This document shows, one piece after another, positions 4,210-8,178 of a stretch of 64,000 nucleotides of DNA. The position numbers were made by a program, and so were the translations under genes. The notes beneath the pieces are model-generated. The model saw only the letters and a list, made by a program, of their open reading frames with translations. It did no database searches and was not told the DNA's origin. Positions within the stretch are counted from its first letter, which is position 1. The number at the start of each line of letters is the position of its first letter. The stretch is from Streptomyces sp. NBC_00440 (lineage in GTDB: Bacteria > Actinomycetota > Actinomycetes > Streptomycetales > Streptomycetaceae): assembly GCF_036014215.1 (NCBI RefSeq), contig NZ_CP107921.1, positions 310,001 to 374,000 on the forward strand, read 5' to 3'.

Positions 4210-5658
4210 TCAGACGGCCTCGGGCTGCTCCTGCGGCACAGCTCCCTCCGTTCCGGAGATCGCCGGCGCGCCGCGCAGGGTGAGGAGCGAGGCGGCCCCG
4301 CCGGCCGCGGCGAGGACCGCCGCACCGATGAACGCGGCGGAGAAGCCGTTGGCGAGGGCCTCGGGATGGCCCAGTTCGTTGGAGCCGTGCGCGGCGGCGA
4401 CCGCCGTCATGGCCGCGAGCCCCAGGGCCGAGCCGACCTGGTAGCTGGTGTTGACGATGCCGGACGCCAGCCCGCCCTCCTCGGGACGCGCGCTGGAGAG
4501 GGCCGTACCGAGCGAGGGGATGAAGGCCAGCGACATACCGACCGCGGCCAGCAGCGAGGCGGGCAGGACATCGACCCAGAAGGTGCCGTCGGCGCGGACG
4601 AAGGAGAGCCAGACCATGCCGGCGGCCAGCGCGAACAGACCTGTGACGATCATCGGCTTGGGGCCGAACCGGGCCATCAGCCGGGGCGCGAGGACGATCA
4701 TCATGACCATGATCGCGACCGTCATGGGCAGCAGCGCGGCCCCGGAGGCGAACGCACCGAGCCCCAGCACCTGCTGCAGGTAGAGGTTGAGGAAGAACCA
4801 CATCGGGATCCAGGCGGCGGCCATCAGCAGCTGGGCGATATTGGCACCCGCCAGATTGGGTGAACGCAGGATGGCGAGCCGCATCAGCGGCTCACGCCGC
4901 CGGGACTGGATGACGACGAAGGCACCGATCAGGGCGATCCCGGCCAGCAGGACGAGCCAGGTCCTGGGCGAGCCCCAGCCCGTTCCGGGGGCACGGACCA
5001 CCGCGAAGACGGCGATGGCCAGCCCCGCCGTGACCGTGACGGCTCCGGCGAGGTCGATGGAACCCCGGCGCGCCGGGACCGACGGCATGACGCCCGGCGT
5101 GATCGCCAGGACGGCGATCGCGATGGGGATGTTGATGTAGAAGACCCAGGGCCAGCTGGCGTACTGGGTGATGAGGCCGCCGAGGAAGACGCCCGCGGTG
5201 CCGCCCGCCGGGGCTGCCGCACCGTAGAGCGACAAGGCCTTGGGGAGCTCGGCCGGGCGGGATCCGAAGAGCATCATCAGCAGCGTCAGCGCCGACGGCG
5301 CGATCAGTGCGGCGCCGATGCCCTGCAGCGCGCGGCCGGTCAGCTCGATCCAGACCTCGCCGGCCAGCCCCGCGGTCAGGGAACCGACCGCGAGGACCGT
5401 CCAGCCGATGACGAAGAGCCGTTTGGCCCCGAACAGGTCCGACAGCCGGCCGCCGAGGAGCAGGAGCCCGCCGAACGCCACGACGTAGGCGTTGAAGACC
5501 CAGGACAGGTTCTCCTGCGAGAACCCCAGGTCGTGCTGCATATCGGGCAGGGCCACGCCAATGATCGACGTGTCCATGATCACCATGAACTGCGCCAGGG
5601 CGATCACCGCGAGCGCGGTCCAGCGCCGCGGATGCGGAGGTGCGGCTGAGTCTGACAT
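4210..5658 (-). CDS. DHA2-family MFS drug/metal exporter
   Basis: 482 residues from the ATG at 5658, preceded by GGGAG (MSDSAAPPHPRRWTALAVIA). It looks like a 14-helix EmrB/QacA-type transporter: motif A variant (GGRLSDLFGAKRLF) between helices 2 and 3, the motif-B segment ALQGIGAALIAPSAL, and motif C (AGGTAGVFLGGLI). Such proteins export lipophilic compounds using the proton gradient. Its promoter region carries copper-type CsoR operators and faces a CopZ-like gene, suggesting metal-induced expression. An upstream in-frame extension to 5850 would run through the operators and is rejected as the start. Confidence 0.93.
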   Translation of the reverse strand: MSDSAAPPHPRRWTALAVIALAQFMVIMDTSIIGVALPDMQHDLGFSQENLSWVFNAYVVAFGGLLLLGGRLSDLFGAKRLFVIGWTVLAVGSLTAGLAGEVWIELTGRALQGIGAALIAPSALTLLMMLFGSRPAELPKALSLYGAAAPAGGTAGVFLGGLITQYASWPWVFYINIPIAIAVLAITPGVMPSVPARRGSIDLAGAVTVTAGLAIAVFAVVRAPGTGWGSPRTWLVLLAGIALIGAFVVIQSRRREPLMRLAILRSPNLAGANIAQLLMAAAWIPMWFFLNLYLQQVLGLGAFASGAALLPMTVAIMVMMIVLAPRLMARFGPKPMIVTGLFALAAGMVWLSFVRADGTFWVDVLPASLLAAVGMSLAFIPSLGTALSSARPEEGGLASGIVNTSYQVGSALGLAAMTAVAAAHGSNELGHPEALANGFSAAFIGAAVLAAAGGAASLLTLRGAPAISGTEGAVPQEQPEAV

Positions 5659-5670
5659 CACTGTGCTCCC

Positions 5671-5687
5671 ATACCGGAGGGGGGTAT
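5671..5687. promoter_or_regulatory. Degenerate CsoR-like operator near the MFS start
   Basis: ATACCGGAGGGGGGTAT keeps the ATACC/GGTAT ends and the G-tract but is less symmetrical than the two sites downstream. It lies 13-29 bp upstream of the MFS start codon on the minus strand, close to its ribosome-binding site, where binding would block transcription. Confidence 0.5.
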
Positions 5688-5702
5688 CGTTGGAGTTGCA
5701 AC

Positions 5703-5719
5703 ATACCCCCAGGGGGTAC
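5703..5719. promoter_or_regulatory. CsoR-like copper operator, central site
   Basis: ATACCCCCAGGGGGTAC is a perfect 7-bp inverted repeat (TACCCCC/GGGGGTA) around one base. From family knowledge, CsoR operators of streptomycetes have this TACCCC/GGGGTA form. It sits midway between the divergent MFS and chaperone genes. Confidence 0.78.
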
Positions 5720-5760
5720 GTAACGCCAGTCCCGATGTCGTATCGATCCGACTTGACGAG

Positions 5761-5777
5761 ATACCCCCAAGGGGTAT
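5761..5777. promoter_or_regulatory. CsoR-like copper operator upstream of the copZ-like gene
   Basis: ATACCCCCAAGGGGTAT is a perfect inverted repeat, ATACCCC/GGGGTAT with a 3-bp spacer, 63 bp upstream of the chaperone start. It matches the expected CsoR site. No csoR gene is in the window, so a regulator encoded elsewhere must act here. Confidence 0.8.
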
Positions 5778-5839
5778 GTAGTCGGACGAGTGACCGGCGG
5801 AGAGACCGCCGGCGCGACCGAGAAGCAGGAGGCTTCGCC

Positions 5840-6106
5840 ATGACCACCACCGCGTCCGCGTCCCCGGCCGTCTACACCGTCAGCGGCATGACCTGTGCGC
5901 ACTGCGTCAAGTCCGTCACCGAAGAGGTCTCCAAGATCGACGGCGTGACCCAGGTCGATGTCGACCTGTCCACCGGCAAGGTGACGGTGACGTCCACCGC
6001 CGCCGTGGACGACGCGGCATTCGCCGCCGCCATCGACGAGGCCGGTTACGAGGTCACCGCGGCACCCGAGCAGGCGTCGGGGAGCTGCTGCGGCAGCTGC
6101 CACTGA
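5840..6106 (+). CDS. copZ: CopZ-like heavy-metal-associated (HMA) copper chaperone
   Basis: 88 residues with one HMA domain. The metal-binding motif is GMTCAHC at residues 16-22, followed by the usual VDVDLSTGKVTV strand and the AAIDEAGYEV end. A C-terminal tail with an extra cysteine cluster (SCCGSCH) is unusual and could bind additional metal. It probably buffers Cu(I) in the cytoplasm and hands it to exporters. It is preceded by AGGAGG and lies behind two strong CsoR-like sites. No P-type ATPase gene is adjacent, which is where copZ is normally found. Confidence 0.93.
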   Translation: MTTTASASPAVYTVSGMTCAHCVKSVTEEVSKIDGVTQVDVDLSTGKVTVTSTAAVDDAAFAAAIDEAGYEVTAAPEQASGSCCGSCH

Positions 6107-6222
6107 TCCAGCCCGCCGCCCCGGCCCGGCGGCCCGCGCACAGCGGGCGCCGGCCGCCGGCGGCCGTATCCCGCCCCCCGCACGATCGGCACGGAGCCGT
6201 CGGCTCCCCGGAAGGACAAGCG

Positions 6223-7158
6223 ATGAACACCATCGGCAAGACAGCAACGTTCGCGGTAGGTCTCGCCCTGGTCTTCGGGGCCTCCCTCGGTATCGGCCAC
6301 GCGGTGGGGCCTGTGGGTGACAGCGCCGAGGCCCACGCCGGCCACGACATGGCCGGTTCCGCCGACCCGATGGGGTCGGGCGACACCGTGCCCGGCGGCC
6401 TGCAGGTCTCCGAGCACGGGTACACCCTCGTACCGCCGTCGGATCCGCTGCCGGCCGGCAAGCAGACCGACTTCCGCTTCCGGATCACGGGGCCCGACGG
6501 CAGACCGGTCACCCGCTACACGCAGTCGCACGGCAAGGACCTGCACTTCATCGTCGCCCGCCGCGACCTGTCCGGCTTCCAGCACGTCCATCCCGAACTG
6601 GGCGCCGACGGCACCTGGTCGGTACCGCTCACCTTCGGATCGGCCGGGAGCTACCGCGTCTTCACCGACTTCGTGCCCGCGGGCGGCAGCGGACTCACGC
6701 TGGGCGCGGACGTCTCCGTCGCGGGCGACTACCGGCCCACTCCGCTGCCCGCCCCCTCCCGCACGGCACATGTCGACGGATACACCGTCACCCTGTCCGG
6801 GGATGCGACGGCCGGCGCGGCGAGCATGCTCACCCTGTCGGTGGCGAGGAACGGCCGGCCGGTCACCGATCTCCAGCCCTACCTCGGTGCGTACGGGCAT
6901 CTCGTCGCCCTGCGCCAGGGCGACCTCGCCTACCTCCACGTGCATCCGCAGGGAGCCCCCGGCGACGGCACCACGCGCCCCGGGCCCGGGATCACCTTCC
7001 ACGCGGAATTTCCCAGCGCCACCGCGTACCGGCTGTATCTGGACTTCCAGCACCAGGGGAAGGTCCACACAGCCGAGTTCACCGTGCAGGCGGCGGCCTC
7101 GCACGACGGCTCCGGGTCCGGTGCGGACATGCCGGACCACGACGGACACGACCACTGA
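6223..7158 (+). CDS. Secreted or membrane-anchored His/Met-rich protein of the copper module
   Basis: 311 residues. The N-terminus has a hydrophobic signal or anchor (MNTIGKTATFAVGLALVFGA...) followed by a metal-ligand-like stretch (AHAGHDMAG). The middle contains two beta-rich segments with histidine pairs (SHGKDLHFI, QHVHPEL, YLHVHPQG), and the C-terminus ends in MPDHDGHDH. A His/Met-rich exported protein right after a copper chaperone suggests periplasm-side copper binding or sensing. No enzymatic family is recognised. Good GGAAGGA ribosome site; a strong terminator follows at 7171. It is probably cotranscribed with the chaperone gene (116-bp gap). Confidence 0.85.
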   Translation: MNTIGKTATFAVGLALVFGASLGIGHAVGPVGDSAEAHAGHDMAGSADPMGSGDTVPGGLQVSEHGYTLVPPSDPLPAGKQTDFRFRITGPDGRPVTRYTQSHGKDLHFIVARRDLSGFQHVHPELGADGTWSVPLTFGSAGSYRVFTDFVPAGGSGLTLGADVSVAGDYRPTPLPAPSRTAHVDGYTVTLSGDATAGAASMLTLSVARNGRPVTDLQPYLGAYGHLVALRQGDLAYLHVHPQGAPGDGTTRPGPGITFHAEFPSATAYRLYLDFQHQGKVHTAEFTVQAAASHDGSGSGADMPDHDGHDH

Positions 7159-7392: not shown

Positions 7393-8178
7393 ATGACGGC
7401 AGCCGCACCCGCCCCCCGGATCGACACGAGCAAGCCGCACCCCGCGCGGGTCTACGACTGGCTGCTGGGCGGCAAGGACAACTACCCCGTCGACCAGGAG
7501 GTGGGCGAGAGCCTTCCGCCCGAGGCGAAGGACGCCGCCCGGCAGAACCGCGCGTTCATGAACCGCGCCGCCGGGTGGCTGGCGGGCAGCGGCATCGACC
7601 AGTTCCTCGACATAGGCACCGGCATACCCACTCGGCCGAACCTGCACCAGATCGTCCAGCAGACCGTGCCGTCGGCGCGGATCGTCTACACGGACAACGA
7701 CCCCATCGTCCTGCGGCACGCGGAAGCCCTGCTGGTCAGCAGCCCGGAGGGCGCGACCGACTACATCCAGGCGGATGTGCGCGAGCCGCGCACGATCATC
7801 GACCACGCCAGGAAGTTCCTGGACTTCGACCGGCCGATCGCGCTCTCCCTGATCGCGCTGATGCACTTCGTGCCGGACGACCAGGACCCGTACGGCATCG
7901 TCGGCGCCCTGGTGGAGACGTTGGCGCCGGGCAGCTGCCTGGTGATGTCCCACGCCGCGTCGGACCGGTACGAGGAACTGGCGGCCATGGTGACGGCGCA
8001 GTACGCCAAGGGCGGCATCCGGCTCGGCTTCCGCACCCGTACCGAGGTGGCCCGGTTCTTCGACGGAATCGATCTCGTCGAGCCCGGCCTGGTGACCGCG
8101 ACCGAGTGGTTCAAGGACACGGCCTCCCCGGAAGCGGAGGGCAGCGGGATCTACGCAGCGGTGGGGCGCATCCGCTAG
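7393..8178 (+). CDS. SAM-dependent methyltransferase, DUF574/Methyltransf_19 family
   Basis: 261 residues from the ATG behind GGAG (MTAAAPAPRIDTSKPHPARV). Family signatures are ARVYDWLLGGKDNYPVD at the N-terminus, the SAM-binding motif FLDIGTGIPTRPNLHQI, and VVYTDNDP-like acidic loop (IVYTDNDPIVLRHAEAL) followed by DVREP. Streptomycetes hold many copies, usually of unknown substrate, often as orphan genes like this one. The frame stays open upstream, but the start chosen here matches the family N-terminus. Confidence 0.92.
   Translation: MTAAAPAPRIDTSKPHPARVYDWLLGGKDNYPVDQEVGESLPPEAKDAARQNRAFMNRAAGWLAGSGIDQFLDIGTGIPTRPNLHQIVQQTVPSARIVYTDNDPIVLRHAEALLVSSPEGATDYIQADVREPRTIIDHARKFLDFDRPIALSLIALMHFVPDDQDPYGIVGALVETLAPGSCLVMSHAASDRYEELAAMVTAQYAKGGIRLGFRTRTEVARFFDGIDLVEPGLVTATEWFKDTASPEAEGSGIYAAVGRIR

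Follow-up and report, generated by a model that had tools for sequence, protein, structure and literature searches.

In Streptomyces lividans, the CsoR targets named in the available part of the source are csoR, copZA1 (SLI1317/1318), and copZA2 (SLI3079/3080), and the CsoR sites take the form of a TAC-N9-GTA dyad (PMC3902906); in Streptomyces coelicolor, the predicted CsoR targets include SCO1044 and a small number of others (PMC6414726, available part). Here, we report a putative copper-responsive module in a 64,000-nucleotide stretch of Streptomyces sp. NBC_00440 (the window; bases 310001 to 374000 of contig 1 of an 8.68-Mb genome), in which a gene for a DHA2-like exporter of the major facilitator superfamily (MFS) diverges, across two CsoR-type operators, from the copper chaperone gene copZ and a gene for a His-rich exported or membrane-anchored protein (SEC). 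Like the CsoR regulon of S. lividans and S. coelicolor, the module has TAC-N9-GTA operators with G/C tracts and includes copZ; unlike it, the locus has no copA and carries an MFS gene on the divergent side, whereas the available parts of the two sources name no MFS target (PMC3902906, PMC6414726).

By sequence, the MFS protein is a relative of the multidrug exporters EfpA, QacA, and EmrB, with the same fold (D29 and R109 recur in its paralogues and in the control groups), but its group differs from them in having a CsoR operator, clade-specific Met residues, E105, W86, and almost no Cys. NrsD of Synechocystis is an MFS protein. As far as the available parts of the sources go, four further systems come close. 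The SigG1 regulon of Streptomyces tsukubaensis likewise ties an MFS gene (STSU_23024, likened by description) and a copZ/copA operon both to a single regulator and to metal homeostasis, but that regulator is an extracytoplasmic function sigma factor instead of CsoR and the genes lie at two separate loci (PMC7730460). InrS-nrsD places a metal exporter gene under a CsoR/RcnR-type repressor, but the metal is nickel and the host a cyanobacterium (NrsD likened by description; PMC4235346). In the RicR regulon of Mycobacterium tuberculosis, a CsoR paralogue is the regulator, and the transport protein Rv0849 (likened by description) and cysK2 are listed with copper genes, but no biosynthetic cluster is mentioned in the part available (PMC10470581). 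The CcoA/CalT proteins are MFS members with conserved Met in transmembrane helices (TM) 7 and 8 of the C-domain, and some calT genes have copA or csoR as a near neighbor, but they are importers with MxxxM and HxxxM motifs, whereas the window protein has neither motif and no conserved His there (PMC6362234). Titles and abstract openings in the literature searched, a coverage outside which most subscription journals fell, named no CsoR-controlled MFS in actinobacteria.

Results

The MFS gene, copZ, the exported-protein gene, and the operator-bearing stretch between the divergent genes were all found where the original prediction had placed them. The starts of the MFS gene (5658, minus strand) and of copZ (5840, plus strand) are separated by 181 bp, within which lie operator 1 (TACCCCCAGGGGGTA, positions 5704 to 5718) on the MFS side and operator 2 (TACCCCCAAGGGGTA, 5762 to 5776) on the copZ side. 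Both are TAC-N9-GTA inverted repeats flanking G/C tracts, as in the definition of the Streptomyces type 2 CsoR operator, and both match the consensus TACCCCNNNGGGGTA exactly. At up to one mismatch, the window gave two matches to this consensus, compared with a mean of 0.08 in shuffled sequence (1 of 100 shuffles reached two). The genome-wide motif scan that had been proposed as a check returned four exact places, namely, the two in this intergenic stretch, one at 7583413, before a biosynthetic gene set, and one at 7616839, before copA beside csoR2. Since about one exact match per genome is expected by chance (base composition, assuming ~71% GC), two exact boxes within 73 bp are well beyond chance. 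Operator 2 lies between TTGACG (5753 to 5758) and TATGTA (5775 to 5780), a possible promoter read by eye; an automatic promoter scan gave no sigma-70-type site at its threshold.

A third, weaker palindrome (TACCGGAGGGGGGTA, 5672 to 5686) had been counted with these two. With two mismatches to TACCCCNNNGGGGTA, it is not significant by itself, as places with up to two mismatches numbered 227 per strand genome-wide versus 204 for a reversed control pattern, hardly more than chance would give. The same 15-mer also occurs ~62 bp upstream of the MFS gene in L122 and L150 (such labels denote fetched genomic stretches, typically ~8 kb on each side of the query gene), both without a strict box, where it occupies roughly the position of the strong box in the window; it may represent an operator that has decayed, or only half of one.

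The regulator would be encoded elsewhere. The genome encodes two DUF156 proteins over the cut-off (3813851 and 7614272), with no third match at an E value of ≤0.001, and both show the Cys/His-x3-Cys ligand pattern of copper-type CsoR; regulation by a persulfide-type protein (CstR) was therefore considered unlikely.

Orthologues of the MFS protein were 62 to 100% identical, with a clear gap to the next MFS paralogues (46% or less), and were monophyletic in a tree of 148 sequences (73/73 tips; support, 0.93). They were present in 43 of 295 Streptomyces genomes. A class-wide draw gave a match in 28 of 394 genomes, one of which (41% identity) fell outside the clade; with the window's own genome and this match dropped, the class-wide set used for operator counts had 27 members. 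A strict operator (TACCC-N5-GGGTA in the 500 bp before the MFS gene) preceded 39 of the 43 Streptomyces members (at least two boxes in 32), 22 of the 27 class-wide members, and, in a separate set, 14 of 18 members adjoining SEC relatives. None was found before the nearest same-genus paralogues (0/40) or in three control MFS orthologue groups (0/11, 0/29, and 0/29), giving 0/109 for the other MFS upstream stretches compared (in the control counts, one gene stands in two sets, as L220 and as L258, and one genome contributes a further copy, L268). Because the sequences are related, a Fisher value for this contrast is no true probability; the contrast is plain all the same. Among the 13 boxless members of the three sets, the best site differed from TACCCCNNNGGGGTA at one position in 2, two in 7, three in 1, four in 2, and five in 1, and in the 40 paralogues, the best upstream sites had 3 to 5 mismatches. 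As the operator marks the orthologue group and is absent from the 109 other upstream stretches, the MFS gene is very probably a member of the CsoR regulon, and such regulation is well supported by sequence comparison, the operator standing before MFS orthologues in many actinobacterial genera.

In a Streptomyces subgroup with 62 to 65% identity, the MFS gene directly heads a seven-gene set on the same strand in 14 of 32 loci (32 of the 34 members were covered with long flanks; L344 and L348 had less than 4 kb on the relevant side), with a gap of 78 to 142 bp between the MFS gene and the set and no further strict box inside it. The set encodes a methionine gamma-lyase-like pyridoxal phosphate (PLP) enzyme, a MaoC protein, an LCM-type methyltransferase, an Rv2258c-like methyltransferase, an AurF-type diiron N-oxygenase, an amino acid-[acyl carrier protein (ACP)] ligase-like protein, and a holo-ACP synthase (AcpS); several of the NCBIfam names scored below cut-off and do no more than indicate a family. 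In L197, four of these seven genes are present (50 to 66% identity). The window's genome has all seven at 7583561 to 7589713, behind the exact CsoR box at 7583413 (L329:13414-19714 spans box and set), followed by a carrier-protein-like frame (read by eye), an S-adenosylmethionine synthetase frame, and a homocysteine S-methyltransferase frame, with an IclR-type gene (PF01614) on the upstream side. One stretch of Solihabitans fulvus (L103:7759-16872) brings together copZ-SEC-copA, MaoC, csoR, MFS, PLP enzyme, and methyltransferase genes, and a box-like TACTCCCCTAGGGTA stands there before the methyltransferase gene. Among the matches listed, MFS and AurF relatives both occur in at least two organisms (Streptomyces sp. 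S1A and Kitasatospora cathayae), and the AurF relatives listed include a protein of S. fulvus.

The MFS gene (4210 to 5658, minus strand) encodes 482 amino acids (PF07690 [MFS_1], 163 bits). Its predicted structure (mean predicted local distance difference test score, 85.5) has 14 TM helices, read from the helix list, which together with the MFS domain is the trait of DHA2 (EmrB/QacA) transporters; at 213.5 bits, under the cut-off of 230.2 for NCBIfam TIGR00711 (efflux_EmrB), the protein is DHA2-like and not filed as EmrB-type. The nearest solved relatives by sequence are the exporters EfpA, QacA, and EmrB. While D29 and R109 are common to the clade, the paralogues, and the control groups, M28 (beside D29) and E105 (one turn from R109) are present in 73/73 clade members and 0/40 paralogues, and W86, N291, and Y406 share with E105 their invariance in the clade (73/73). 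M317, M320, M312, and M128, too, are invariant or nearly so in the clade; the first two are clade specific, occurring in 0 to 3% of paralogues, whereas for M312 and M128 the figures are 5% and 12%, with 33% each in control group 3. Cys is lacking in 71 of 73 clade members versus 1 of 40 paralogues (0/10, 4/30, and 0/30 in the control groups). Met made up 7 of 219 conserved columns in the clade, compared with 5 of 182 in control group 2 and 0 of 128 in control group 3, and M375 (93%) and M286 (87%) are shared by the matched control group rows (rows for control Met percentages were every second control-group sequence). The argument for Cu(I) transport from a methionine ladder is thereby weakened, since a matched orthologue group is nearly as rich in conserved Met; M28, M317, and M320 stay group specific after this comparison, and M128 and M312 are rarer elsewhere. 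The CcoA motifs MxxxM (TM7) and HxxxM (TM8) are absent, the equivalent helices carrying M286 and M312-x4-M317-x2-M320, and no His column reaches 90% in the clade.

The suggestion that the MFS exporter takes the place of the P-type ATPase CopA was rejected. The genome holds three copA genes, and CopA-like matches (E ≤ 1e-100, some below the family cut-off) averaged 2.35 per genome in 31 of the 43 MFS-bearing Streptomyces genomes versus 2.13 in 31 of the 252 others (73 versus 66 in total; 2 of the 31 MFS-free genomes gave no match), so that the exporter is no stand-in for CopA. The third copA lies at 8345083 to 8347263, with a further copZ-like frame at 8351718 to 8351906; no box with 0 or 1 mismatch is close to it, the nearest being ~11 kb off at 8334265.

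On the other side of the operators, copZ (5840 to 6106, plus strand) encodes an 88-amino-acid copper chaperone whose HMA domain (PF00403; 66.4 bits, cut-off 24.8) carries the MxCxxC motif of CopZ chaperones as MTCAHC; the best NCBIfam CopZ model scored 67.3 against a cut-off of 91 bits, making this a domain-level assignment only. After the HMA domain, a C-terminal CCGSCH tail (6086 to 6103) adds three Cys and one His. The closest copZ match elsewhere in the genome (59%) is at 450273, adjoining copA.

SEC (6223 to 7158, plus strand; 311 amino acids) has an N-terminal hydrophobic helix and two immunoglobulin-like beta-sandwich domains (~65 to 168 and ~185 to 293). It had no Pfam or NCBIfam match at an E value of ≤0.001; the YtkA-like domain PF13115 scored 15.2 bits, below the gathering score of 25.9, and matched 27 of 34 members of the SEC family at an E value of ≤1 (best, 1.3e-5). 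The protein had been described as His/Met-rich, and the His part of this description stands: eight His (103, 108, 121, 123, 226, 239, 241, and 277), four per half and including HxH pairs, are invariant in 34 aligned sequences, in which no Met is. SEC may bind metal through these residues. The family is large, with 7,999 matches among 8,000 candidates scored.

Copper-gene neighborhoods of SEC were examined in 80 of 177 relatives found on named genome contigs. In 71 of these loci, copA was present, and in 58, a copZ-like match, SEC, and copA stood close together on one strand. The Streptomyces flaveolus locus L101 has its SEC relative divergent to copZ and copA, which is also the arrangement of SCO1044, itself probably a SEC relative. 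The window's own locus is not a copZ-SEC-copA operon; no copA match was found within ~8 kb on either side in L040, the same locus in Streptomyces sp. NBC_01306, whose counterparts of the five proteins compared are 99 to 100% identical. Recurrence of MFS with SEC and without copA, which the original prediction had proposed as a check, was seen in L043, L066, and L114 (~8 kb searched on each side) and L041 (a 6.8-kb contig), with copZ matched in L041, L043, and L066 and not matched in L114. Elsewhere, the MFS gene stands beside copZ-SEC-copA (L054, L059, L093, L098, and L111; Nocardioidaceae, Geodermatophilaceae, and Rhodococcus). When open frames of 49 loci were clustered, the copper genes that recurred were those for SEC (20 loci), for CopA (14), and for a DUF156/CsoR-like protein (11). 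Several of the remaining clusters seem to be these same genes read in overlapping frames, and those of 5 loci or fewer pointed to the biosynthetic set. Some Streptomyces loci showed no copper-gene match within 8 kb of their boxed MFS gene.

Directly downstream of SEC, a methyltransferase-like gene (7393 to 8178) is also present in L040 (99%) and L041 (93%). It is probably not part of the module, as only L094 (37%) had a match among the other 78 SEC loci.

Discussion

Comparative sequence evidence supports the identity of the operators, their conservation before the MFS group, and the gene partners. From it we infer CsoR binding at this locus, copper induction, the direction and substrate of transport, and metal binding by SEC, and we favor, at a probability of roughly 0.5, a module for the copper-triggered export, through the MFS protein, of a small molecule that binds copper or of the complex so formed. 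Apo-CsoR encoded at 3813851 and/or 7614272 would occupy both operators and silence both directions, until Cu(I) released it and lifted repression. CopZ would then buffer cytosolic Cu(I), SEC would bind copper outside the membrane via its two sets of invariant His, and the MFS protein, probably proton driven, would expel a copper-linked organic molecule or its copper complex, which in many Streptomyces would be the product of the CsoR-boxed biosynthetic set. The exporter would act alongside CopA, not in its place.

An organic or complexed substrate is preferred because the MFS gene and the set are arranged like an operon behind one box pair and because the set in the window's own genome has a separate CsoR box. 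MFS relatives heading a small-molecule cluster suggest that copper excess triggers the export of a copper-related compound, and where the original prediction had left the choice between copper and a copper complex, the boxed set speaks for a substrate that is organic or complexed rather than for free Cu(I). A fuller version, which we hold tentatively and at somewhat less than even odds, is a chalkophore-type detoxification in Gram-positive bacteria, in which CsoR would switch on the ~6-kb set and an N-oxygenated, possibly sulfur-containing, copper-binding product would leave, free or loaded, via the MFS protein. That this product might be a fluopsin-like thiohydroxamate is guesswork only.

Several observations weigh against small-molecule export. 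In 9 Streptomyces loci of the window's type (L178 to L185 and L198) and 18 from other genera (L199 to L216, two of them shortened by contig ends), no such set was found within ~8 kb of the MFS gene, so that its product cannot be assigned as the MFS substrate there. The strict box is missing in 4 of the 43 genus and 5 of the 27 class members. Direct Cu(I) transport would likewise be consistent with Met columns 28, 128, 312, 317, and 320 and with a clade almost free of Cys, and the position of the MFS gene beside plain copper operons in other genera casts doubt on a metabolite and keeps direct Cu(I) export alive.

That the MFS protein exports Cu(I) itself against protons, with Met of TM1, TM4, and TM10 as soft ligands, buried E105 and D29 for coupling, CopZ delivering, and SEC receiving, is the main rival reading, though one that we regard as unlikely. 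It would account for the clade-conserved M28, E105, M317, M320, M312, and M128, for the 71 of 73 clade members free of Cys, and for the MFS genes that stand beside copZ-SEC-copA with no set in the stretch in Rhodococcus (L093, L098, and L111) and others. In our mapping, moreover, TM9 and TM10 are the counterparts of helices TM7 and TM8 in 12-TM MFS proteins, where, in the available part of the source, CcoA has MxxxM and HxxxM (PMC6362234). Those motifs themselves are absent, however, the conserved-Met count is not clearly above that of the matched control (7/219 versus 5/182, with 0/128 in control group 3), the solved relatives bear the names of drug pumps, and the operonic tie to the biosynthetic set would need another explanation.

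Less probable still is a general drug exporter without dedicated copper chemistry, placed under CsoR because toxic organics or copper ionophores accompany copper stress. NCBIfam multidrug models do match the protein (the 25 listed all below cut-off) and its closest solved relatives are multidrug pumps, but residues invariant in this clade (W86, E105, N291, and Y406; 73/73) and an operator conserved across genera point to a dedicated role. It is highly improbable that the boxes serve copZ-SEC only and the MFS gene is a bystander, as the shared 181 bp and the position of operator 2 on the copZ side would allow; solitary MFS genes carrying boxes largely refute this, since in 27 of 30 MFS loci neither copZ nor SEC is matched within 1.5 kb and yet a strict box precedes the MFS gene in 26 of the 30, and two or more boxes are the pattern in 32 of the 43 genus members.

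If copper-triggered export of a small molecule or its complex is the true function, CsoR would govern a further arm of the copper response, in which actinobacteria would respond to copper not just by pumping ions but also through a secreted small molecule. A copper-inducible natural product would thereby become directly findable, and the MFS arm would supply a test case for MFS-mediated export of copper or copper complexes.

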